64,000 nucleotides of DNA from Lasiosphaeria ovina (Eukaryota; Ascomycota; Sordariomycetes; Sordariales; Lasiosphaeriaceae). This document shows positions 48,827 through 64,000 of the stretch, in pieces. The translations under genes and the position numbers were made by a program. The notes under the pieces are model-generated. The model searched no databases. It worked only from the letters and a program-made list of their open reading frames with translations, and was not told the origin of the DNA. Numbering within the stretch: the stretch's first letter is position 1; every line of letters starts with the position of its first letter. The stretch lies in contig JAULSN010000003.1 in the NCBI GenBank assembly GCA_033439765.1, forward strand, positions 5,208,001 through 5,272,000, given 5' to 3'.

Positions 48827-50405
48827 GCGATAGTGGCTAAAGACGATAATGTATCTGGATGCTCTTCGCCAAGCACTCGCCGCCTAGCCTGGGCACAGTC
48901 CTCCATTAGTGCTAAAGCATCTGCGCGTCGACCTTGACCTTTCTAGGTAAAAGCGAGGTTATTTATGCTCGTCAGCGTATCTGGGTGATCGGCCCCGAGC
49001 TTGGTCTTGCTCATCTCCATCACCTATACGTTCAGCTTCTCGGCCTCCTCCCACCGGCCCTGGTTCCTATATATCGACGCTAGGTTATACATACTCGATA
49101 GCGTGCTTGGGTGATCGGCCCCGAGCTTGGTCTTGCTCATCTCCATCACCTGTACGTTCAGCTTCTCGGCCTCCTCCCACCGGCCCTGGTTCCAAAATGT
49201 CGACGCTAGGTTATACATGCTCGATAGCGTATTTGGGTGATCGGCCCCGAGCTTGGTCTTGCTCATCTCCATCACCTATACTTCCAGCTCCTCGGCCTCC
49301 TCCTACCGGCCCTGGTTCCTATATATCGACGCTAGGTTGGCCATGCTCGATAGCGTATCTGGGTGATCGGCCCCGAGCTTGGTCTTACGAGTCTCCATCA
49401 TATGTACTTCTAGCTTCTCGGCCTCCTCCCACCGGCCCTGGTTCCTATATGTCGACGCTAGGTTGGCCATGCTCGATAGCGTATCTGGGTGATTGGCCCC
49501 GAGCTTGGTCTTGCTCATCTCCATTACCTGTACTTCTAGCTTCTCGGCCTCCTCCCACCGGCCCTGGTTCCAAAATGTCGACGCTAGGTTGGCCATGCCC
49601 GATAGCGTGGAAGGGTGATCGGCCCTAAGCTTAGTCTTGCGAGTCTCCATCACATGTACTTCTAGCTTCTCGGCCTCCTCCCACCGGCCCTGGTTCCTAT
49701 ATGTCGACGCTAGGTTGGCCATGCTCGATAGCGTATCTGGGTGATCGGCCCCGAGCTTGGTCTTACGAGTCTCCATCACCTGTACTTCTAGCTTCTCGGC
49801 CTCTTCCCACCGGCCCTGGTTCCAAAATGTCGACGCTAGGTTGGCCATGCTCGTCAGCGTAACTGGGTGATCGGCCCCGAGCTTGGTCTTGCGAGTCTCC
49901 ATCACCTGCACTTCCAGCTCCTCGGCCTCCTCCCACCGGCCCTGGTTCCTGTATGTCGACGCTAGGTTGGCCATGCTGGCCAGCGTGTCGGCATGGTCGT
50001 CACAAAGTCCAGCTTGGTTGAATCGATAATCGATGTAGTTAGAGCAATCGGGAAAGGTGCAATAGCCATGATGCACACAGAGAATAACTTCATCATCGTC
50101 GGTGTGCTCCTCGCAGCCAGGGGCATCGCATTCCAAATGCTCTTTGCACCGCCGTTGTAGTGGGCTGCAAATAACTTTGTCGCATCCAGGAAATTGACAT
50201 TCCTCTGGTGGGTGATCGTTGCAGAAGCGGAATAGATTCTTGCAACCAGCAGCGTTGCAGCGGTCTATTTGTTGTCAGCAGAGTGTCTCGCGGGATACAA
50301 CCCAGGGCAGGAAGGCATACGAGTTGGGCAAAACCAAGGAATCGTGCCGTCGGGATAGGATCCTCCTTTATGACAAGGCGTAAACCCACAAATAGAATCT
50401 ATGTA
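48827..50405 (-). pseudogene. Cys/His-rich plus kinesin-light-chain TPR protein
   Basis: From 50405 down, the frame reads SICGFTPCHKGGSYPDG, then an intron (GTATGC..AATAG, 50320-50265) and RCNAAGCKNLFRFCNDH, ECQFPGCDKVICSP, CDAPGCEEH and CTFPDCSNYIDY: a run of zinc-binding CxxxxC..CxxH units. After ADTLASMANLAST the kinesin-light-chain TPR array begins, about eight units of 42 residues such as NQGRWEEAEKLEVQVMETRK-TKLGADHP, ending with RRRVLGEEHPDTLSSL and a stop at about 48827. In-frame stops at 49300 (former TGG), 49276, 49024 and 48943 (former CAG) break the array. No start ATG is evident; the frame is open back to the TGA of the C2H2 gene. In fungi such TPRs are ligand-sensing ends of NLR-like proteins. 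Confidence 0.7.
48960..49985 (-). repeat. 126-bp tandem repeat encoding TPR units
   Basis: About eight units repeating at exactly 126-base spacing, seen from the recurring gtgatcggccccgagcttgg. Units are over 85% alike by eye, so they were recently homogenised. The stop-creating changes fall in individual units. Confidence 0.9.
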
Positions 50406-52270
50406 TCAGCCGTTAGCTTTGGAGGTATCTAGTGGCGTAGAGGGAGCAACTATACCATGATGTGGGGTACTACCACCTACGCTGGCAGCACTGTCCGTAA
50501 ATATGAGTGTCCCTGCCGTCCATTCGTGTCTCGAACCTCCACTGGACTGGTTCGGCTTGCTTGAGCCGACTTTATCTGCACCATCGGCACCAGAGTCACC
50601 GGCAGACCGGGGCAAAGAGAAGAGGGAGATTCGCTCCAAATGTCTTGAGATGTGCGTATTGAGCTCCTGGGTTTTGGTGTAGGTAGCAAGGCAGATCGGG
50701 CAGCATCTGGTGACGGCAGCTGAGACCGATTTACTGGCACAGGCCAGTAGGGCTGTTCTGAAATCATTGCTCTGGTTGCCATGTTCGGCTTCCAGATGTG
50801 ATTGGAAGCCGTCCTTGCATGGGAAGATGTGGGTGGGGTGCTCAGGGCAGCGCATGGATAAGCGGTGCGTTGACTCTTCATGATTGATCCAGCTCTCGAT
50901 GCTGTCGTACAACTGATCCGATGTTCGGCAGCTCTCGTAAGTGCACAGATAAGGCCGTAGATCATGGATCAGATGGGCTCTAGTTCATGCCATAACGGCG
51001 TTAGCAATGCCCTTCAGAGCAAGTCTGGCCATGTCTCGTAAGGCATTTTCTTACCTCCATGCCCTGTCGGAGAGTAACCTGCTTGAGCATAATGTGAAGC
51101 AATACGGACACTCAAAGAACCTGCCGTCCGACAGATGAGTAGGCGGCGCGGGGAACCCGAGCTCCTCTTTGCCTGGCTGCCATGCCGATGCGGCATACTC
51201 GGAAACCGAGGCAACTGTCGCTTGGTCATTCCATGTCGCGACTCGGAGGGTGTCTAGCCGGCTCGCGGTTGTGACTGATTGAGCTACAGCAAGGGGAACT
51301 AAAGGGTTGTTGAGTGGTAGTTGCGTCCCTGTTGCTGCCATTGCGATGGGGGCATGTACGTCCTGGGTCCTTTGGGTCTTGAGCTGATCGATTGCCGCTG
51401 TGGAGTGATGAACCAACTTGCTGCGGTGGTTTTTCCAATATGCAAATTGCTGCCTTCGACGGACGTTCGCGCCCGCTATCCGGTGGACCAGAAACGACTC
51501 GGTGCCCTTGGAGCATTCCTGTTTGTGCTGCGATAGCACCGTTCGGATGGGCTCCCACACCAGGTCCACACCAACACCCTTGTCCAATGGCAAAGGCTCT
51601 GCTTCTGCGTTGTCTGCCCGGGCTCTGGATTTCCGGAATTCCAGGAACAGAGAGCTAGCGTAGTCATAGTCGAGTTTCTTGAAGGCATCGAGAAGGTCTA
51701 CGCCGCTTTCTTGGTCAATCAAGCGATAGTGGAGCACCTTTTGTGACGCCGCTCTGGATGACGGGTTGCGGATCCAGACAGCGAGCTTGAACAGTCGATC
51801 GATGGGATCCTTGACACCTTCCAGAAGCAAGTCGGCATCTGAGCCGCCCTGCGTGTCAAAATCTTCGTCGCCACCAGCCTCATCCGCTGGAAATTCCTCC
51901 TCCACCGGGTCAACTTCCTGGGAGGGATCAGAAGAGTTGCCAAAATAATCGAGAACTGATGCTGGGTCAGTATTGCAGCAGGAGCGATCTGACAGAGGAG
52001 ACAACCTTCAATAAGAGCGTCCTCCAGGCTAGAAATCATCCTTTGGGCAGCAGATCGAATATTTTCGGCATCCCTGAGACGGTAGTCCAACGACGCATGT
52101 CCTGAGACGAAGAGGCCGAGATTGACTCCCCAAAGCTGGAAGCGATCCGCCTGGGAAGCCAGCTTCGGTGCCAACGCATTAAAATTTTCGGGACATTTGC
52201 TCGAGTCAAGAGCTTTGACCTTCTCAAATTCGGCTGCGACGCGAAAACCGGCGTGGGCAAGCGCGTCCAT
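50406..52270 (-). CDS. C2H2 zinc-finger protein, acuF-like family
   Basis: Three exons, 52270-52006, 51955-51055 and 50979-50406, 579 residues with all phases matching. The N-terminal domain reads AAEFEKVKALDSSKC, ADRFQLWGVNLGLFVSGHAS and LDYRLRDAENIRSAAQRMI, the conserved head of fungal C2H2 proteins often annotated as acuF-like. A second block has DRLFKLAVWIRNPSSR and DLLDAFKKLDYDYASSLFLE. The zinc-finger part holds FFECPYCFTLC, RPYLCTYESC, WINHEESTHR, CPEHPTHIFPCKDGFQSHLE and CCPICLATYTKTQELNTHIS plus HLERISLFSLPR. Function is unknown; such proteins often lie near NLR-type genes. The TGA at 50408-50406 is followed in frame by a zinc-binding domain and TPRs, so the original gene may have been longer. 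It starts 235 bp from the divergent DUF7580 gene. Confidence 0.85.
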
Positions 52271-52505
52271 GGCTCAAGAGGTCATCGACTCATGGTTGAC
52301 CCGGACTGGCGAGGAGAGTCGCGGTCGGCGCTTCGGTCAGCAAGGCTCCAATACGAGTTGCACAAAAATTCTCGTGACACATTACCCCACTTCAGAGCTC
52401 GGAGAACTCCGAATTCCCGAAAATCGTTGACCGTTCTTCAACTCTTCCTTGGGTTTCCATCGTCCATTTCAGCTTCCCATAACGGCAATCAGCCCTATAG
52501 ATACC
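52271..52505. promoter_or_regulatory. Shared divergent promoter region
   Basis: 235 bp between the start codons of the C2H2 gene (minus) and the DUF7580 gene (plus). Both promoters must lie here or overlap neighbours. No clear TATA box or operator was seen. Confidence 0.5.
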
Positions 52506-54274
52506 ATGACTGGACTTGAGATTGCAGGTGTCGTCCTTGGGGCACTGCCGATTCTTTTTTCTGCGGTTGACTGGTCGAAAAGGGGAATCGGCAGGGGCGC
52601 CATTTTCTTCAGGAAGCGACGATCTGTTGAGAAGCTGGCTCTCGCTCTTCTCTCGCAACGACAACACCTTACCGAAATTATCAGGTCCGTCCTTGCCGGA
52701 AGCGGATGTGAAGATTTGTCCCGGCTAGAAGATGACCCAATCGAGTATTTGATGGATGAGGCGATCCAAGAACAGGTGTTGGACTACCTGGGAGAAGAAA
52801 CATTTGCTGCGCTTCAAGGGCAGTTGGACCATTGCCACGAGACCATCAAGCTTCTCGCCATCAAGATCGCGGGGCTTGTGCCAAGCATTCAGGTGAGGCC
52901 CCAAAGGCCTGCTGTGGCGCAACCAGAGGCTGATCCAAACCCATTCAGGGCCCCAGCGATGATCTGATGCGCATCATCAGGGAAAACAGAGACGCAAAGA
53001 GTAAGCAGTTGGATATCCCGCCCCGGGTCAAGCTCATGCTTGGTGCCGAGGGCTTCAAAGAGATCACAACCGATTTGGACGACACCACCAATTCTCTCTT
53101 TCGTCTGACCAGCCTGGTGTTGTCAAACCGACAGGCTACTGGGCTTCGAATCTCTCGGGGAGCCCGAAGCATTGCCAAGTCCCTCCGCCGAGCTCATGAG
53201 TCGGCGTCAAATCTTTACGTCGCCATATCTCATGCCTGGAAGGGCGACTGCCACGAGGGACACGAGGCCGGGCTGTTCCTGGAGGACCGTATCTCAGACG
53301 GTACGCCAGGCCGAAAACTTGCCAATGCCTCCTTGTCGTTCCATATTGCCTTCGAAGCCATGATCTCCGAGCAGAAGACAGTCTGGCATGAAGCCGTCGT
53401 TCGCGTGCTGCACGACGATGAACACGACGACGACCCAGGCCCGAAACAGCCAACCATAACCTGCCAACCACACAAGCCATCTCAACGCGTCACAGTCATC
53501 GTCACCAACGCCAAGCCTCAGCTTGCGAGACCTCAAATCGACCCGGTGGAGAATATTTGCACCGCTATCAGTCCGATATGCCGCAAGGACTTCGTTCTCA
53601 CCAGGCAATGCAAGATCGGGCTCATAGCTCCAGACAACCCCACACTAGCCACCTCAGGCGCACCAGCAATGACCCCCCTGAAAGATCTCTTGCATAGCCG
53701 CAGTCCAGCCGCACAACGAGCTCCAGTCTCCCTACGTTCCCGAATGCTTCTCGCCCTTAACCTCGCGTCTAGCCTTCTACAGCTGTTCCGGACAAACTGG
53801 CTTCCTAACCCTTGTTGGTCTTACGAGCATATATTTTTCCCCGCTGTAACCGAGGCAGCACCGCAACCTCAGGCGGGAAAGGCCAAGATAGATCTGGGCC
53901 GACCATTTGTGTCCACATCTTTTGCCAAAGACGCCACCCATTTGCAATGTCGACAACTGGCAGAGCCCAAGGTAGCTCTCCTCGGGTTGGGCATTCTCCT
54001 TCTCGAGATCTGGCACGAAGAGACTTTGGAGGCGCACTTCTCACTAGAGAAGCGACCTACCGTGTTTTACGAATGTCTCGCGCTTGCCCTCAAATGGCTA
54101 GACGAGATGACCAACCCACCTCCTGAGCTGTACGATAGAGCCGCTTCTCACTGCATCAAGGGAATGGTTGGCAGTGAGGTGCGACTTGGGCAATGGGACG
54201 ACGGCGAGGTGTGGAACGCTATTTGTGGCGACATCATTGAGCCGTTGCTCAAGAACTGTAAGATGTGGCGGTGA
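52506..54274 (+). CDS. DUF7580-type fungal protein
   Basis: Two exons, 52506-52892 and 52949-54274, joined by a GTGAGG..TTCAG intron, 570 residues. The start MTGLEIAGVVLGALPILFSA is the hydrophobic N-terminal helix typical of this fungal family and resembles the N-termini of HeLo-like cell-death domains. The first third is helical (VEKLALALLSQRQHLTEIIR). The C-terminal half has SLRSRMLLALNLASSLLQLF, WLPNPCWSYEHIFF, PKVALLGLGILLLEIWHEE and a final CIKGMVGSEVRLGQWDD, a degenerate kinase-like fold without HRD or DFG motifs. Proteins of this type are abundant and variable in Pezizomycotina; a role in self/non-self response is suspected, not shown. It forms a divergent pair with the C2H2 gene and is intact. 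Confidence 0.8.
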
Positions 54275-54799
54275 CCTAGGGTGAGAAATGGTGATGGAGA
54301 TTGAGACAGACGGCACGCCGTCGGGGACAACCACCCAACCAGGCAGGAATGGCGCAGTTGGATTAATATTTGGACAAGAATGAGAGATACCTTGCCAACA
54401 CAATATCCTCTATGTTTTGTGAATTTCACACGTCTCCCATTTTAAGCACGCCGTCGCCATCAAGGCCCAACCTGAAGACTCAAGACCCAAGTCGACCACG
54501 ACGAAGTACCGGAACGGGCAGATAGATTATCCGGTATTTAGGTGCGGCTCCCTTTCTGTCGTTGGCTGGTGGATGTGTCTTTGGCCGAGTTGGACGGCCG
54601 GATATATGGTGCCGGCATGCGCTCGGGGGTGCTTGACTGACAGCGATATACATCTTTAAAAGCTTCTTAGTCCTGATATTGCAGTCCAGTACTCAAAGGG
54701 AAGCCGTGCCTGCACTCTTGTCTTTTTGCTCTCCATCTATACCAGTGACGAGCAACGACACACAAAATTATTCTCAATGTTTTCGTTTCCGCTGCCTTC
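54275..54799. other. Intergenic, no gene seen
   Basis: 3' flank of the DUF7580 gene. Short frames only. Confidence 0.45.
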
Positions 54800-55195
54800 T
54801 TGGCGATTAGGTGGGAGTTGGACGATAGTAGTAGTGGTACAGAGGATGACACAGATAATAGCGCAAACGACGACATAAACGGCGGGTTTGAAGATGATGT
54901 GGCGGTGCTAAGGGACTACTGTCTGATTGCTACAAGCGAAGTTGGGGAGGAATTCGAAATGCACGGACTTGTACATGTACAACTGTCGACAAGGAAGTGG
55001 TTGGAAGCTTCTAAGCAGGAAGAGACGTTCCAGCAACACTATATAAACGAAGGGCAGCATTATTCCCAACGGGGAACTACAAGAGCCGCGCGACCTGTCG
55101 GAGTCTCTTTGCACATATTCAAAGTAGCGCTTGGTTACCGACCTAGTGAGGATACGCTCGAAATGTAGGCAGCGCTTTTACACAGTGGAGGATAG
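54800..55195 (+). pseudogene. NB-ARC/TPR protein fragment (NLR-like)
   Basis: The frame holds FEDDVAVLRDYCLIATSE, EFEMHGLVHVQLSTRKWLEA, EETFQQHYI and, after scrambled sequence, VALGYRPSEDTLEM followed by a TAG in place of Trp. This is the winged-helix-like end of the NB-ARC module and the linker to kinesin-light-chain TPRs of fungal NLR-like proteins. The nucleotide-binding part upstream (P-loop, Walker B) and the TPRs downstream are missing. A relic, perhaps of the locus that also gave rise to the TPR gene at 48.8-50.4 kb. Confidence 0.65.
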
Positions 55196-55489
55196 TATAT
55201 TATATTTCGTCTGCTTCAATAAGACCTGCTGCCTTGAGGAGGGACTTCTACTGTTAGATTTATCACAAAAGTAAAATGGCTCATACACATCACCGCGTAC
55301 ACATTAAAGGGCTGACACAGTCATTTGCCGCGGTAAAACAAAAAGTCAAACAATTAAACGACACCGACAGAGTCATTGGTTCGATCAACGGATTCTAAGT
55401 GTTCAGCTAGATGCCAGATCCACAATCGCAAATATAAAGACACAGTTGATGGATGCCTTTTAAACGCCATGCCCAGGGCAGCAAGTTCC
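55196..55489. other. No gene seen
   Basis: Spacer between an NLR fragment and a LINE fragment. No motif. Confidence 0.4.
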
Positions 55490-56150
55490 AGTATATATTT
55501 GTCGATAATACTATCGGCTCGATGCAAGCTAAGCGGAGTAGACCGCCTGTTTATTACTGTACAAGAATCAGTTTTGGTTGACCTCCACTGTTTGTTGATA
55601 TGGGCTCTAATATGCCGAATTTGAGCGAAGCAGCACCTCCAGTTCTTTGCAAAGTGGCTTGCCAACCGACTAGCTTCTTACCCACTTAAGCGACCGCAGG
55701 TTCCAAAACCATACCGGCCTATCGCCCTTCTCTCCTGCCTTGGTAAAGGCCTTGAGCGTCTGGTTGCTAGACAATTAGCTTACCCTGCCCTCTGTCATAG
55801 AGTCCTCGCAAGAGACCAATGTCGAGATACCTCACGGTCAGCCACGGACTTGACTATAGCACTGCTCTTAGACATTCAAGACTCTTGGAACCGTCAAATG
55901 GTGGCTGGATAGACGACGGATAGTAACTAGCGCCTCGGACTTACTAGCCTATATATTGTAGAACCAATACGGATTGAGCGACTTGGTTAGGTTGGATTTT
56001 TAACTACCTTACCCTACCCAAAGGGCGAACCAAAGGTACCCTTGGTATTAACGGGACTACAGGTAATCTCGTGAATGAATTTCAGCACTCCGTCCTATTC
56101 GCCGCACTGAAATTCGAAGCGAATCGGACGGATATCCATGTCTTAGAGAA
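55490..56150 (+). mobile_element. LINE (non-LTR retrotransposon) fragment
   Basis: Positions 55700-55905 encode PYRPIALLSCLGKGLERLVA, RQLAYPALCHRVLARDQC and TDLTIALLLDIQDSWNRQMV: the RT domain entry of Tad-type fungal LINEs. Sequence upstream at 55490-55590 also matches the RIP-mutated LINE scrap at 4.5 kb. Downstream the RT frame decays. Little RIP here. No 3' tail or target duplication seen. Confidence 0.75.
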
Positions 56151-56394
56151 GCAATAGACGTAATTTAAGATAGAATGATAATTAGAAAGAAAGCCAAATA
56201 GAATTCACCTAAATGGCCTCTACAAATGCAGAATGGCGACATTATATTCTCTCGGCGTTTTGAGCCTCGGTGCCTCGAGACGGCCTCTTTTCTAAACATA
56301 CGCGAGGTCTGGCAGATTCGTGGCTAACATGAGAAAAACTATTCCAACCCCGCGAGCCAACCTAACATCACGAACGCACAACCAGAATCCAAAC
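56151..56394. other. No gene seen
   Basis: 3' flank of the CHAT gene. A hairpin-like pair ccgtcctattcg / cgaatcggacgg lies just before, at about 56091-56133. Confidence 0.4.
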
Positions 56395-59300
56395 TCATAA
56401 CCCCATATAAACAATCCCGGCCCACAAAAACGGCTCATCCTCAAACTCCAAATCCACGTCGTCATCATCATCATCATCATCATCATCATCACCACCCAAT
56501 CCCTTAGTCTCCTCCCTTAACCTCCTCACAGCCACATTAACCGCCTCCGCCACTCTCTCATAGCATATCCCTCCATCACCACCACCACCTCCCCGATTAT
56601 TCCCTCCCTCCCCACCCTCCCGATTCCCCTGTTGCAAAACCACCCGCCACATCCGACCCGAAACCTTCACCGCCCTCCGGTCACTGACCTGCCAGAGCGT
56701 GCCCACAACCTGCGGAAACCCCGCCAGTTGAAAGGCCGCCGCGAGATGCAATCCCTCGTCCAATAGCCACGCCGTCTTGGTATTAGCAACGTGGCACGCA
56801 GAAAGGCAGGTTAGCCTGGCGAACGGCAAGCGGTGGGACGCGATGTCGGAGACGGTCAAGGGCCCCGGGCCTGGCGGGTCGCTATCGGGGGAGGACTCCC
56901 AGTCGGGCAGGAGGAGGCGGGATCGGGAGGGGTCCGAGGTTGAGGCGATGCCGTGGCAGGAGAGGTGGAGGATGGAGACGGGGGCGGTGGCGGAGGTTAG
57001 ACGGGAGAGGAAGGCGGGTTTGGTCAGGGGACTTGGGGACGAGGGGAGGGGAGGGTTGGTGAGCACTGTGACGGGTAGGAAGGGAGATAGGAGGGAGGAA
57101 AGGTTGGAGACTTCGTCGAGGGCAAAGGGGAGGTCGGCTTCGGAAGGGGTTTGTTGCATTGCGACGAGGAGGGCGGTACCTGTGTTTGGTTCTTGGTGAG
57201 GGAGGGTTTCGGCACAGGAGAGACGGTCCTGGGCGTGTCGGAGGGACTTAATGGTGGTAGCGTAGCTGGAGATGATAGTGTCCATGGCGTTGAAGCCGGT
57301 GACGGGGTCGGTGGCTGCGTGGATCGGGAGGTTGGTCATGACGCTCGCTAGAATCCAGCATTATGCGGTGCTGGGCGCCGTCGGGCGGTGGAGGAAGCCT
57401 AGTAAGGATTGGCTGGACAACGCTGTGCCAGAGCCAGGCGAGGATGTCCCGCACCACCTGGTTAGCCTCGATTCTGTCAATCGTTCCGGTGCTTTCGTCT
57501 TGGATTGCTTGAGTAAGCTTATTGGCGTGATCAACGGCCTCCTCGACGGCTAGACCTGGCAGGTTGACGTTCCATATCTGAGTGCGCTGGACGATCAATG
57601 CATCGCTTCTCAGGCTTGATACGTTGATGAGAATGATGTAGGATGATGGCCCGACCCTTTCTTGGAGCTGTTCAGCTGTTGGGGCCATCAGGAAATTCTG
57701 AAGACCTTTAAGCTGTCTTATGTTCTGAACAACGCTGTCAAAGGCTTTGGCGGCTGCGATTCTTGCCTCTGGGCCTCGATTCCATAACGTGCCCGTGTTG
57801 GGGTCTGCAAGTCCGGCCCCTTGATCGGAGGTGGCATTGTCAATAAGTCTGCTGGCTTCTTTGAACTCTGTAGCTAGTCGCTCGTCACGCTCCTCCAAGA
57901 ACGCTATGTCTGTCCTTGTGTCGATAAGCATGCTGTTCATAATCCCTCGGCTCGCTTCGAGGGCCCGGACTGCCTCTCCGGCGCTGTCACCAGCTGCCAA
58001 GAGCGTCGAAGTTGCATAACTCCCCAGGCCGCTGAAAGTAGAGATCATCTCTTGCTGTTCCTCCTTCCGAAGGAGACGAGGGCTCAAAGTTGGAAGAAGT
58101 TTGATAGCTAGCCTAGCAAAGCCTGCCGCTGTTTGTATGTCGGCTTCAGAACGACCAGCGAGGAGAACAATCGCCCGATAAGTTGCTGTAACTCTTTGAA
58201 GCGAGGAGGCAGTATCGAGCTCGGCTACTTCTCGATATGCAGCAAGTGCGTGATGATACGACGGCGAGTCGCCTCGATGCTTGTGCAGCTCCTCGTGTGC
58301 TAGACCCAAGTTGTTCAGCCATAGCGCTGTGCAGCTGTGGTTTTTCGGCATTACCTCCAAAGCTTCACTGAGATGGGATATAGCGATTTCAAGATGCTTC
58401 ACGTATTGCGGGCTGGCACTCCCTTCTGACTGGGCTTTTCCCAGATAGGCATTCCCCAGTTGTCCAGCGGGGAGATAGCTAGCCGGCAGATTCTTCGACA
58501 GCTCAACCGACTCGCTGGATGCAGCCAGACAACTTTCCCAGTCCTCTTCCGCACCATTCAGGGCGAACCGGAGCTGTAAAGCATAGCCCAACGTGTAGAG
58601 TCTTCCTGGGCGCAGAGATTTCCAGACACAATCAATATCAACTGCCTCTTGATAGAATCGGATGGCGTTGTCGAGAAAGCTTCTGTCCTCTGCCTCCTGA
58701 TACGCTCGTAAGAGGCAGTTTGCGAACGCCACCAATGCGAGCGTGTAGTCTATCGAGGACTCGTCCAGCATCTCAAGAGCTTTTTCAGCCATGGCGGAAG
58801 CAGAGTTGAGGTCATCAAGCGACCCACGAAGGTCAAAGCGCGCGAGCAAAGCCACGCTGAGATTCATGTAGACAGTGGAACCCGCATTGCGAGCCACGCC
58901 GACCTCGATCCTGTCTGCCGCCGTCGCGGCTTGCTTCAAGACGTCGACGGCTTTGTCAAGGTGATCGGCAACTGACGAGTGATCGAAGTGCAGGATGAGG
59001 GCCTCGGCGAGCGCGGACCGGTACTGAATCCCTTGAATGCTTTCCTCCGGAGTCTCTTCGCAAATTGATGTGAGAGTGTGGATAGACTCTTCAATATCGC
59101 GCTCATTGCCGTCTCGGACAAATCGATAGAGCAGGCAAAGACCGTAGCACCACTTGCCGTAGTTCGAAACCGAAGGGGTAGCCGGAAGTTCTCGGAGAGC
59201 CGGCTCTAGCATACTCAGAGCATCATCTAGACTGGTGCCTGAGCTGTCAATCTTGTGATGAACCCGGAGGGCATCCGCTAGATTAATAGTGAGCCGAAGA

Positions 59301-60043
59301 GCTTTGGGGCTTTGCTGTTCGGATGCCAGTTCTACCGCCATGTAGTAATAAGCAATGGCCTCCCCGAGGATCTCTTGTGACGGATAATGGGTGAAGAGGG
59401 TTTCGAGCACCATGGCGTATGTGTCGAGGAAAACAGCTTGATATGGATCATCGTCATCTGAAGCATTGACTGCCTCCGCCGCGAGCTCTGATGCTCGTTG
59501 CAGGTCACCGGGGTCCCCATCTGGGTCGCTTCGGAACTTATCGAGCAGGGAGGCGGCCAAGCCATTCAGAATCTTGAGCCTTGTTGACGCACTCGGGTTG
59601 GCTTCCAGTCCTTCTTGGTACAACGAGATGGCTTCGTCGAGTATGGCTGCGTCCGGTTGGAATTCCCGAAGGTTTCTTAGCGAGTTCCCGAGGTTTGACA
59701 GCAACACCGGTTTCAGGGCAGCGGCAGCGCATCCGCTCCCTTCCCGCAACACCGAAACAGCTTGCTCGGCGTATTCCGTGTTTCCAGACATGGATCCTAG
59801 ATCCATTAGGAAGAGTCCAAGATTGTTGAGGTACCCCGCAAGTTTAGGGAGCTGGCTGTTTCTCGACATGTCTATCGCTTGGTGGATGGTTGTGATGGCC
59901 GTTTGTAGCGTCTCTTGGTCGGACTTCATCAGCGCAGATCGCCAGATGGCCTTGGCTAACGTGTTCAGAGCCTCGGCCCTCTCTGCTCCGTCGGTGGGGG
60001 TCGCCCTGACAGCCTTCTCGAGCGAAGAGGTTTCACGATCCAT
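56395..60043 (-). CDS. TPR-CHAT protease-like protein, frameshifted
   Basis: A protein of about 1,200 residues in two overlapping frames, 60043-57248 and 57339-56395. The first 880 residues are TPR-like helical repeats, e.g. LAGYLNNLGLFLMDLG, VLLSNLGNSLRNLREF, DAAILDEAISLYQEGLE and ALWLNNLGLAHEELHKHRGD. The C-terminal CHAT domain (caspase-related, clan CD) shows PSSYIILINVSS, LLVAMQQTP, ILHLSCHG with the catalytic His, LTCLSACHVANT with the catalytic Cys, and AAAFQLAGFPQVVGTLW. At about 57358-57363 the frame changes by one base with no splice sites, between the TPR part and PIHAAT. Otherwise it is undamaged. An Asp run near the C-terminus comes from an ATC microsatellite. It starts 330 bp from the divergent gasdermin-like gene and is the likely activating protease of that pair. 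Confidence 0.85.
56461..56492. repeat. ATC microsatellite in coding sequence
   Basis: About ten ATC units, read as an Asp tract on the minus strand near the C-terminus of the CHAT gene. Confidence 0.9.
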
Positions 60044-60373
60044 TGGGAGGACGGAGGAGGATACGGCGTGGTGGAGGACAATGCTGGTGCCAATTGCGAG
60101 GCCTTTGAGACTGGAGCGGGGTTGTGAAGAAGGTCAAAGATTTGACGCACTGCCCAGAGGTGAGCCAATGCCTGGCGAGGAAAGATGTATGTACCAGATC
60201 CGTTCGAGTCACACAAACCAATGGGGGCAAGAATTTCAGCCGCAGCACGTGCAGCACATCACGGTGGCACCACCGTTGCGTGAGAAAAGCGGGGAAGGAA
60301 TTCTGGATAGAGATCAGCCAGAAGGAACTTGTCAACCTAAAGGCTAGAATCTAAGCGCAAACTAATTAGAAAG
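60044..60373. promoter_or_regulatory. Bidirectional promoter of CHAT and gasdermin-like genes
   Basis: 330 bp separate the two divergent start codons, so shared regulation is plausible. No clear TATA box or repeated operator was identified. Confidence 0.55.
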
Positions 60374-61237
60374 ATGTCGCCACCAGCCTTGTCGAGGTTC
60401 ATGGACGGTTTTCTTACCGAAGGGGAAGTCGAGCTCGGCCGACTCGTCCTGGATACTGCAAACCCGCAGAAGAACTTTTGCAAAGCTGCTGGCCTGACGC
60501 TCACGGACGCTGATCGATCGCGGAGGGAGTTTGACAACATCGATAATATGGTCGGCGCTACATCCGCATCCAAATTCCAGCTTCTCCTGACGAAGCTCCT
60601 CGAGATCATTGCCGGTAAATCCTCCAAGTCAACCGACAATTTGAAGACGGCCAAGGCAGTGAGCTACGAGTTGTACAATGTTGACGAGAGGCTTGAGACG
60701 CTCCTCCAGGATGACAAAGTGAAGAAGTGGCTGGAGAAGTACAGGAGCAAAGCACGCATCTATCTGGTTGTGGCACTACACACCGTGAAGGACGCCTCCG
60801 TCACACTCGGCACGAATGATGCCTTGGAAGTGCATGTCAAAGCTACTGCCCCCGCTGCTCAGGCCGCAGATGCAATCGCTCCTGGCGCTTCGGTGGCTGC
60901 AAATGCAGCAGGCAGCGTGGAGGCAAAACTGGGCTACAGTCGTAGCCGTGAGCAATCGGCGTCTTTCGTCGCGCCAGGGGAACGAATTATAGCTGTCGGG
61001 TATCTGGAATTGCGCTTCCGCGCCTTCTTAAGCAGCACAGCGGAAGCGTCTCAACTCGCAAAGACTACGGTATGGAAATTGTTTGACACGTCGAGAGCGA
61101 CTGGCAGTGCCGACATGATCGAGGCAACGGTTCAAGGGGTTTCAGAGCTTGACAAGGGGCTCAAGGTTGAAGCGGAAAGCACGGGATCGACCGGAAGGTT
61201 CGTTATCCTTGAGGGTCAAGTGAGCGGCGGTGGGTAG
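60374..61237 (+). CDS. Gasdermin-like protein (RCD-1/HET-Q1 type)
   Basis: An intact intronless frame of 287 residues, the size of fungal gasdermin-like proteins (about 250-290). The start follows AAGATGTCGCC. The N-terminus reads FMDGFLTEGEVELGRLVLD; the centre has ARIYLVVALHTVKDASVTLG, an Ala/Gly-rich stretch (residues about 155-180), then YSRSREQSASFVAPGERIIA and VGYLELRFRAF. This order, a beta strand with YLVV, a variable Ala/Gly loop that could form the membrane-inserting hairpin, and a strand with F-x-x-P-x-G, parallels the pore-forming gasdermin domain. A short tail ending RFVILEGQVSGGG could be the inhibitory peptide removed by cleavage. Established: fungal members kill the cell when cut, and their genes commonly lie beside subtilisin or CHAT protease genes. 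The neighbour here is a TPR-CHAT gene. Assignment rests on my pattern recognition plus this context. Confidence 0.7.
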   Translation: MSPPALSRFMDGFLTEGEVELGRLVLDTANPQKNFCKAAGLTLTDADRSRREFDNIDNMVGATSASKFQLLLTKLLEIIAGKSSKSTDNLKTAKAVSYELYNVDERLETLLQDDKVKKWLEKYRSKARIYLVVALHTVKDASVTLGTNDALEVHVKATAPAAQAADAIAPGASVAANAAGSVEAKLGYSRSREQSASFVAPGERIIAVGYLELRFRAFLSSTAEASQLAKTTVWKLFDTSRATGSADMIEATVQGVSELDKGLKVEAESTGSTGRFVILEGQVSGGG

Positions 61238-62102
61238 GCTGGGAAGTCGGGGGTTTTGGATAACCACGCGAGATACATAGCCGATGGGTAGATATGAGGA
61301 ATATCACAACCCCGAGAAAAGTCAAGCCTTCCATCCAGTAATCACTCTTCCTGCCACAGGCGGTTTTTCAAACTTCCTGAACATGTCGCCCGATGTGTCA
61401 AAAAAAAAAAAGACATATATATCACTGTTAGCTCTACAGCTACTAGAGGAATTTCACTTTTGGCCGTATAGCGCAGTGGTTAAGTTCTGGGACACTATGC
61501 CTATGTGGATAGAGCGTTGGTTAAGAAGAAGTAGGCACCACTCGCGAGGGTCCTCGGGGCTCGGTCTCCCGCAAATATACCTCCCTGAGCCACCGTATAG
61601 CCATCTCCATAGTGATATAGCCCTTTTTTGAGTAATTGTGCTTCCAATTGGGCAGCTCGGGGCGGAAACTACTGGGTCTGGAGCGAATAACTGCTTGGAT
61701 CGTCTAGAATATCGCTTTCTAACGGGAAAGGATCGTCGAAATCGTCCATTTATTTCGCCAGTCAGCTCAGTCGATTGAAGCGAAAAGGAAGGAAGTTTTA
61801 CTTGCAGAGGAAAGCTGCGTTGTTAGTGCGTGGTGATCGACTGTTGGATTGAAGTAGTTGTTGTGGTGTAGTTGGCGAGGTGCACTTGGCTTATACAGCT
61901 GGCTAGGTGCACTTAGCTGCAAGTGGCGGTGCTGCAATTGAAATGAGGAACTTTACTATACAACTAGGCTAGGCTGTCTTGGAGGTAAAAAGTGGGTGGT
62001 GGCTTAGCACCAATGATGGACCATACCATCTAAGTGAACAATGCCGTACTACCAATGGATCAGGCGGTCCGCACATCCCCCGCTTCGCTTTCTCTGCAAT
62101 GT
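61238..62102. other. Intergenic, no gene seen
   Basis: 3' flanks of two convergent genes. A run of A (61399-61411) and a tRNA-like A-box stretch near 61466 without a B box. No supported gene. Confidence 0.45.
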
Positions 62103-63004
62103 TCATTTCAGTTGCTTATTGTATTCTAAACGGACTTTTTCCAGGTTCCCCAGCAGGAGGTCGGTAGTGAACGGTGTGCTAGGTCTCTTCCAGCCTAGCT
62201 TGGTAGGTAAACGTTCGTTTTCTAACAAGGGGTTAGCCCGAGAAGCACTAGTGTAGGAATGCCTAAACGACGTACGAAACAGGTATTCCACAAGCCTCTT
62301 ATCCACGGTGATGGATTGTGCGTCTCCAAGAATGGAGATAAAGGCGGCTGTCTCTCCTAGAATGAACCCCTGACCAAGTTCGGATATCGAGTATGTTGGA
62401 TCAGTCGCCTTGCACGTCTTCATGCGGGCGATGATGGAAGCAGTGCCGCTTTCGACATTGACCACGTCGCCCCAGTACGAACGCGTCTCATCAAAGGCTT
62501 GCTGGTTGAAGACGTCGGCGTGTCCCACGAAGGCATCAACGCGGCTGTCAATATGCATGTGAGAGAGGTTCCCTTGGCTAAGTGGCAGGGTGGGAAGGGG
62601 CATACGAGAGACTGGCATCGTGCTCCAGCACATTATGGCGGCTCAGGTGGTCAAGCGAGAACCAGGTGGCGTTGGGCTCTGGATTCGTTGCGATAGCAAA
62701 ATCGAACAGAAAATGTGAGATGTTTGCATCGAAATGGACGGCGTTAAAGAGACCGTCAGCTAGGTCTTTTTGGGTAATGTATTTGCCGGAACGAGGTAAG
62801 AAGCCGTGGTTCGCAAAGGTGTTGAGGAATGGGCAGGGCCCACGGACTTTCGTGGCGTGAGTTAATTAATGCACATTGATGCTTGGAACGACCGTTCGAC
62901 ATACCATGGCCTGCCTCGGGCCCATGCCATTGCTCAAAAGGGTCCTGGCTTGTGTTGCTGGCCGCAACGGCTACCGTCACAGAAAAGAACGCTGCAAGCC
63001 TCAT
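62103..63004 (-). CDS. Secreted heme-thiolate peroxidase (chloroperoxidase family)
   Basis: Four exons, 63004-62905, 62846-62606, 62544-62276 and 62221-62103, 242 residues with matching phases. The start MRLAAFFSVTVAVAA is a signal peptide; an ATG two codons upstream (63010) is equally possible. GPCPFLNTFANHGFLPRSGK contains the proximal Cys heme ligand of the Pro-Cys-Pro motif. NVLEHDASLSRVDAFVG holds the Glu-His-Asp acid-base triad of this family. Later come ISELGQGFILGETAAFISIL and NERLPTKLGW, both conserved. It would act outside the cell as a peroxidase, peroxygenase or haloperoxidase; the substrate cannot be told. Shorter than Caldariomyces-type enzymes, near the short fungal class. Intact. 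Confidence 0.88.
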
Positions 63005-64000
63005 GGTCAATGCGAATGATGCAAAGGTGGTGACCTACCCTGGATTGGGGTAATTCACGAAACCAGCTCTGACTTATATGACTACTCGGGAATACAAACT
63101 CGTTTCGACATTGGGACGGCAGATAGACGTCGAAGTGTGCATATAGCCGCGCAAGCGTTTTCGTATTCATGCTGGCTAATGTTGTATTCGATGCGGTTTT
63201 TGCTAATTGCTTGCGGTTGATTGGGTACCTACCTACCGGGAGTCGCATTTCCTAGTCCCCGGATCCGACGTAGAAGATGTAATTCGCCCGGGGCCGGGGT
63301 TGAGTTAAGCCCCGAACAAATCACAGAGCAACGGGCCAAGCAGACCTTGGGTCGGTCAGTTACATCCTGCCGGGACATCTCATGCCGCATCTAATCTCCG
63401 CTCCGTCCATAATTACGCGCATGGCTACTCCTCCACCAATCATATTTCAACTTCCCGCAGGATCTCTGAGCTGTTCGTATCCTACTCTCACCCTTCAGCC
63501 CCGGCCACAACTTGAAGGTTGAGAGGAGTTCAGACGAGGTTCAATCATAGAACGGTGCCATAGGCGTGCTCTGTTGGTCGCAATATCGCTTAGACGGATA
63601 TAAAAAGGTCTCGGCGGCAGCGAGATGCTTGTTCATTAATAGTGTTTGGGCTTCTTCAGAACGCAATTTTAGCCGAGGGGACAGAAAACGGGTCTCTGGG
63701 GCTGTGCAGCTGCCGCGTATGGGTTCACCACACCCGCCACACCAGAATCCTTGATTATCCGACACAAGCTCATCCCATATGAACCGTACGCGACACCCCT
63801 ATGGCGCTTCCTCGGCAACCTTGGTGATGCTGCCATTGCCCGGACCAATGTTTCCACCGCTAGGCCAACGCCGGGTCGGTTGCTTTAGGAGCTGGACATA
63901 GGGTTCGTCGCCCTCAGACACCACAAATCGTTCGGCTAATGTGCCACGCGGGGTGAAGCCCGAAGCCCTATACATATAAATACACCCATCCTATTGCCAG
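63005..64000. other. No gene recognised
   Basis: Promoter side of the peroxidase gene, then short frames on both strands. Near 63770 the plus strand reads IPYEPYATPLWRFLGNLGD, which looks protein-like, but there is no start, family or continuation that I can support; a gene edge beyond the window is possible. Confidence 0.4.

Follow-up and report, generated by a model that had tools for sequence, protein, structure and literature searches.

According to excerpts of three reviews (PMC10197012, PMC12881547, and PMC10989679), about 1,900 fungal gasdermins are counted in 400 genomes. About 80% of them are clustered with proteases (Clave et al. 2022, via the same reviews), and 17-19% with CHAT types (cysteine types in one review), often bearing TPR, ANK, or WD40 repeats. 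In Podospora anserina, activation of a gasdermin by its TPR-bearing CHAT protease has been demonstrated (Clave et al. 2022, via an excerpt of PMC12881547). Here, we describe a 64,000-nucleotide stretch of the Lasiosphaeria ovina genome, referred to as the window (contig C23, positions 5208001-5272000; genome of 51.7 Mb in 32 contigs). The window very likely holds a fungal, pyroptosis-like two-gene module, in which a gasdermin gene is divergent from a gene for a TPR-CHAT (caspase/separase-like) protease, and the protease carries a one-base, recent-looking break. The components of the pair are as follows, in window coordinates.

60374..61237, + strand: fungal gasdermin-like (fGSDM) gene, a single intact open reading frame (ORF) of 287 amino acids (aa) with zero internal stops
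60044..60373, no strand: intergenic region of 330 bp separating the divergent start codons, with ORF starts on both sides
57248..60043, - strand: ORF1, 931 aa, TPR sensor and beginning of CHAT; residues 1-894 orthologue-like, final 37 out of frame
57340..57361, - strand: 22-nt stretch with a one-base frame slip between the ORFs, without a canonical frame-restoring GT-AG intron
56395..57339, - strand: ORF2, 314 aa, remainder of the CHAT domain, Gly-rich insert, and poly-Asp run; PF12770 match at E 3.1e-24, 49-74% identity to 11 orthologues
56953..56955, - strand: catalytic His codon (LSCHG; H129 of the CHAT ORF, column H1022 of the intact Schizothecium orthologue P0043)
56794..56796, - strand: catalytic Cys codon (SACHVA; C182 of the CHAT ORF, column C1075 of P0043)

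An earlier note on this DNA had described an intact 287-residue gene placed head to head with its partner at a distance of 330 bp. Both statements hold, as the gene at 60374-61237 (+) has no stop inside and the divergent ORF starts at 60043 (-), leaving the gap 60044-60373. The protease gene is 330 bp from the gasdermin gene, within the 10 kb reported for about 80% of fGSDM genes.

The closest described arrangement is the TPR-CHAT/gasdermin cluster of P. anserina, with which the locus was compared by description. In both, a gasdermin gene is clustered with a TPR-bearing CHAT gene, but the protease frame is broken in the window. HET-Q1 of P. anserina is likewise a protease-controlled gasdermin of similar length (278 aa vs 287 aa), which sheds 40 C-terminal residues; its protease HET-Q2, however, is an S8 serine protease and not a CHAT protein (excerpt of PMC10989679). 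RCD-1-1 and RCD-1-2 of Neurospora crassa (PDB 8jyx, 8jyy, and 8jyz) provide the best fold match to the 287-aa protein and are of similar size, with 257 and 244 aa (excerpt of PMC11760362). The identity in the VIA alignments is 10-12%. In that system, two allelic forms pair and cleavage was not observed, whereas the family described here is associated with a CHAT protease. Bacterial gasdermin/protease gene pairs differ further, as the window pair is fungal and divergent, with low similarity. The TPR-CHAT/gasdermin pairing is therefore not novel in kind, because the reviews describe the arrangement, including the tested P. anserina pair (excerpt of PMC12881547). The window locus adds another well-supported pair, whose gasdermin is unrecognized by the Pfam, NCBIfam, and PADLOC models at the thresholds used.

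The assignment of the 287-aa protein was based on its predicted structure. The best structural match of the AlphaFold2 model was Neurospora RCD-1 in both Foldseek and VIA, and gasdermins occupied all of the first 18 Foldseek rows. The model supports a gasdermin N-domain fold for this protein, nearest to RCD-1, in agreement with the gasdermin guess of the earlier note, and the fold comparison proposed there for the 60374-61237 product did not return an unrelated fold. Searches with the sequence identified 34 relatives at E <= 1e-3, self excluded, so that the family is more than chance. The named relatives are fungi throughout, the nearest being Schizothecium vesticola and Triangularia verruculosa, and the start codon is aligned with that of four of the five nearest relatives. 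In the genome, no second close copy was found, the sole match at E <= 0.001 being the gene itself. A single-sequence search against the PDB returned a chance match alone (E 9.5), and a search of a viral structure library gave no match below E 4.

A disfavored reading, which we consider very improbable, holds that the 287-aa protein is something other than a gasdermin, its neighborhood being coincidental. Its sequence signal is weak, Pfam, NCBIfam, and PADLOC gave no match at the thresholds used, and no Foldseek hit fell below E 0.001. However, the leading 18 rows of the fold search were exclusively gasdermins, and members of both families lie on common contigs in relatives and recur together within the genome, as described below.

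Two regions of the protein can be related to the expected function of a gasdermin.

60794..60958, + strand: low-confidence loop, residues 141-195 (pLDDT < 50), flanked by long DSSP strands 129-139 and 203-218
61073..61123, + strand: conserved stretch, residues 234-250, with W234 in 32/33, R241 in 30/33, and D247 in 31/33 sequences of profile alignment A2

From the gasdermin fold, the loop would be the site of the membrane-inserting beta-hairpin. The conserved stretch, together with the variable linker at residues 255-264, is the likely cut region and a candidate for the removal of the C-terminal tail. Alignment A2 excludes P0035, which has a long extra C-terminus, and P0017, with an unlike C-terminus. 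P0035 is a distant relative of 415 aa, in which the gasdermin-like part is followed by a segment whose motif resembles the beginning of a protein kinase domain. Three further relatives (P0026, P0030, and P0032) end ahead of the final two family strands; like RCD-1, these proteins may have no C-terminal tail, or they may have been mis-modeled.

The pairing was then evaluated in related fungi. Contigs were judged to be shared when their size in bases was exactly equal in the CHAT and gasdermin-family match tables. The comparison took 59 (P0042-P0100) of the 92 non-self CHAT rows, the other 33 being outside it. As a result, seven of the 11 close CHAT orthologues matched the contig of a gasdermin-family member, and in six of these the organism was also the same. 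The matching contigs belong to Schizothecium vesticola, Triangularia verruculosa, Coniochaeta ligniaria, Dactylonectria macrodidyma, Ilyonectria destructans, and Aspergillus pseudocaelatus, in addition to one 12,210-base contig. The contig given in the tables is the longest for each protein cluster; therefore, further shared contigs may be hidden.

Within the genome, there are 12 CHAT matches at 11 places, the window's own included. A gasdermin profile search of about 20 kb around each of the 10 other places resulted in two with an adjoining gasdermin-family match, both partial, on contigs C28 and C1. As a control, the best match in one shuffled copy had an E of 0.46.

G000:C28:867992-873871, - strand: C28 CHAT frame (loci L036, L037), 1,960 aa stop-to-stop, with CHAT, AAA_16, and NPHP3_N matches
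G000:C28:873551-874558, + strand: C28 gasdermin-family ORF (loci L036, L037), partial match at E 5.3e-14, overlapping the upstream end of the CHAT frame
G000:C1:6908056-6908397, + strand: C1 partial gasdermin-family match (locus L038), E 8.9e-7, beside a CHAT match at 6908575-6909132 (-) that contains a stop

As in the window, the CHAT and gasdermin-family ORFs of C28 adjoin on opposite strands. In contrast, the C28 sensor ORF has AAA_16 and NPHP3_N matches above the cut-offs and a NACHT match below the cut-off, whereas the window has TPRs alone. The C28 pair may represent the same module in an NLR-type form; gasdermin genes adjoining NLRs that carry a CHAT or S8 domain at the N-terminus were reported (excerpt of PMC9815663). 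The C1 pair is possibly decayed or split by an intron. The earlier note had proposed to check whether the pairing occurs elsewhere; both families share contigs in related fungi and recur together within this genome, so that a lack of pairing was not seen.

The protease has the architecture of a repeat sensor followed by a protease domain. ORF1 carries the TPRs (TPR_10, E 8e-10), and ORF2 carries CHAT at the E value given above. The TPR ORF has 11 close orthologues (P0042-P0052) with 46-73% identity, the named ones all being fungi, and its residue 1 is aligned with residue 1 in six of them; farther TPR-CHAT matches include bacteria and lancelets. Both catalytic residues, His and Cys, are conserved without exception in 12/12 aligned rows including the window and in 18/18 rows of an alignment that excludes it. 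In the model of P0043 (pLDDT 83.0), residues 2-773 form a helical solenoid and residues 798-1193 an alpha/beta part, so the order of TPR solenoid and then CHAT is seen in this intact orthologue as in the window ORFs. Among its PDB matches, separases fill rows 1-8, and the type III-E TPR-CHAT protein Csx29 (Craspase) appears from row 13, among other TPR-rich proteins. The protease shares its fold and TPR-CHAT layout with Csx29 and separase, but no CRISPR or cohesin context was seen, and the NCBIfam model of Csx29 scored 21-25 bits (including 24.7) against TPR-CHAT, with a cut-off of 300. No NB-ARC or NACHT domain was present among the Pfam matches of ORF1 up to E 10, a list thinned above about 0.1 by the HMMER filters, and no nucleotide-binding domain was evident from the secondary structure of the P0043 model. 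Hence, the sensor without NB-ARC or NACHT that had been described before is retained as TPR plus CHAT. In the C-terminal region of the CHAT ORF (window 56395-56650, - strand), an unbroken poly-Asp run is encoded by a trinucleotide repeat, where the orthologues have mixed Asp/Glu, and the Gly-rich insert exceeds its length in the 11 orthologues.

The earlier note had also presented the TPR-CHAT gene as carrying its His and Cys, which implied an intact, working protease in the genome. The domains and both residues are present; however, the gene occupies two ORFs in different frames instead of one continuous reading frame, and the frame is broken inside CHAT. ORF1 matches the orthologues to residue 894 (883-894 across individual alignments). 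A gap of 22 nt separates this point from the CHAT ORF, and the closest orthologues span it with seven residues, which indicates a one-base slip. ORF2 spans positions 37-288 of the 289 of the PF12770 profile; the slip is thus inside CHAT, and the product of the TPR frame ends ahead of the catalytic His and Cys. The predicted proteins of 11/11 orthologues are continuous across the break site, a comparison of proteins and not of gene structures, and therefore intact copies exist.

An intron in place of the frameshift was also considered. The scan covered GT-AG introns of 42-161 nt, GC-AG introns being outside it. Three frame-restoring candidates were found near the break; each lacked both a canonical donor and a branch-site match and would excise conserved CHAT residues.

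A sequencing or assembly error, in which case the strain would have an ordinary intact TPR-CHAT/gasdermin pair, is a serious contender, although we place it somewhat short of even. On either side of the break, the sequence has remained conserved and free of stops, and the gasdermin is intact. Changes private to the window affect 14 of 287 CHAT columns and 38 of 884 TPR columns, neither part being above any of three relatives. Against an error, the 22-nt stretch contains no single-base run longer than two. Additionally, a 931-aa protein identical to ORF1, the out-of-frame tail included, is the representative of a protein-database cluster with two members. The contig listed for this cluster has 3,519 bases, whereas C23 of the window has 6,364,307 bases. 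A second assembly may carry this break too, but this is no more than a hint, as the clusters were formed at 90% identity and the short contig may belong to a merely similar member. If real, the break looks recent, judging from the private changes.

Our preferred reading remains the gasdermin/TPR-CHAT module with a broken protease in the sequenced strain. Where relatives have both genes intact, the TPR solenoid would act as the sensor and restrain CHAT until its signal is met. The released CHAT domain would then clip the gasdermin near its C-terminus, and the clipped protein would oligomerize into plasma-membrane pores, leading to hyphal cell death. These steps would follow the published fungal model, in which a protease-bearing sensor trims a short segment from the C-terminus and thereby releases the pore-forming protein. 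The ligands of such sensors are named as a major open question (excerpt of PMC12881547). As the in-frame product is without the active site, the adjoining protease probably does not switch on the gasdermin in the sequenced strain. This would not apply if the break arose in assembly or if other strains do not have it. The uncommon feature of the locus is, accordingly, an intact gasdermin alongside an apparently freshly broken protease.

A less probable explanation is a genuine loss of the protease, with the gasdermin retained for another use; it would then be activated either by an allelic partner or by a protease from another locus or another strain. Models for such uses are RCD-1-1/RCD-1-2, which involve no protease, and HET-Q1 and HET-Q2, which act between strains; for RCD-1, the excerpt of PMC11760362 reports no observed cleavage step. 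The gasdermin is intact, with private changes at 14 of 272 columns, within the 11, 11, and 18 of three relatives, and a review proposes that pseudogenization of part of a pair creates allorecognition loci (excerpt of PMC10197012). On the other hand, the break may be too recent for the constraint on the gasdermin to be informative, and the genome holds no second close copy (self match only, E <= 0.001). The combination of intact gasdermin and broken protease fits the pseudogenization route and is not itself evidence for it. If the protease break is real, the locus would allow a direct test of the published idea that partner loss turns pairs into incompatibility loci.

It is improbable, though conceivable, that the break is real and segregating, so that strains with intact and with broken TPR-CHAT share a live gasdermin and a CHAT-based allorecognition (het) system is forming. 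If true, the fusion of such strains would expose an unguarded gasdermin to an active protease. In Aspergillus fumigatus, hetB incompatibility rests on a CHAT gene, for which a gasdermin target was suggested and is unproven (excerpt of PMC11138114). Slightly more doubtful still is a non-lethal role of the gasdermin fold, for example in secretion. One review lists secretion among the processes in which the roles of such clusters merit exploring (excerpt of PMC12881547), but the fungal gasdermins treated in reviews, RCD-1 and HET-Q1, function in cell death (excerpts of PMC10197012 and PMC10989679).

Several results weigh against the module with a recently broken protease. The best Foldseek E for the 287-aa model was 1.3e-3, and the RCD-1 rows had a TM-score of 0.25-0.33 (query length). 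For gasdermins other than RCD-1, the VIA Z was at most 6.8, in the range where the tool warns of common arrangements. The profile match to RCD-1-2 (8jyz_B) was weak (E 0.84) and ranked below three unrelated matches, and no solved gasdermin passed the threshold by sequence. With regard to the pairing, location on the same contig does not prove adjacency, the short 12,210-base contig excepted. Among the 21 members of the gasdermin family whose contigs have at least 12 kb, 14 had no CHAT partner within the 59 rows of the comparison. The C28 gasdermin-like ORF, searched by sequence against the PDB, returned no gasdermin, with a best E of 0.07 (replication factor C). Finally, the CHAT/TPR ratio of private changes in the window (0.049/0.043) exceeds the approximately 0.6-0.9 of the three relatives, on small counts, and may be a mild sign of relaxed constraint.

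In a literature search pairing Schizothecium or Triangularia with gasdermin, no paper naming both was among the matches listed. No direct or inverted repeats of at least 30 bases were found in window positions 50000-64000. The neighboring ORFs comprise a 435-aa ORF with a DUF7580 match (PF24476, E 7.3e-25) at 52967-54274 (+), and a 122-aa ORF at 54800-55168 (+), without Pfam support, which resembles part of an NB-ARC-TPR protein. On the other side of the pair, at 62103-62633 (-), a 176-aa ORF is similar to family 2 peroxidase (PF01328, E 3.7e-7).

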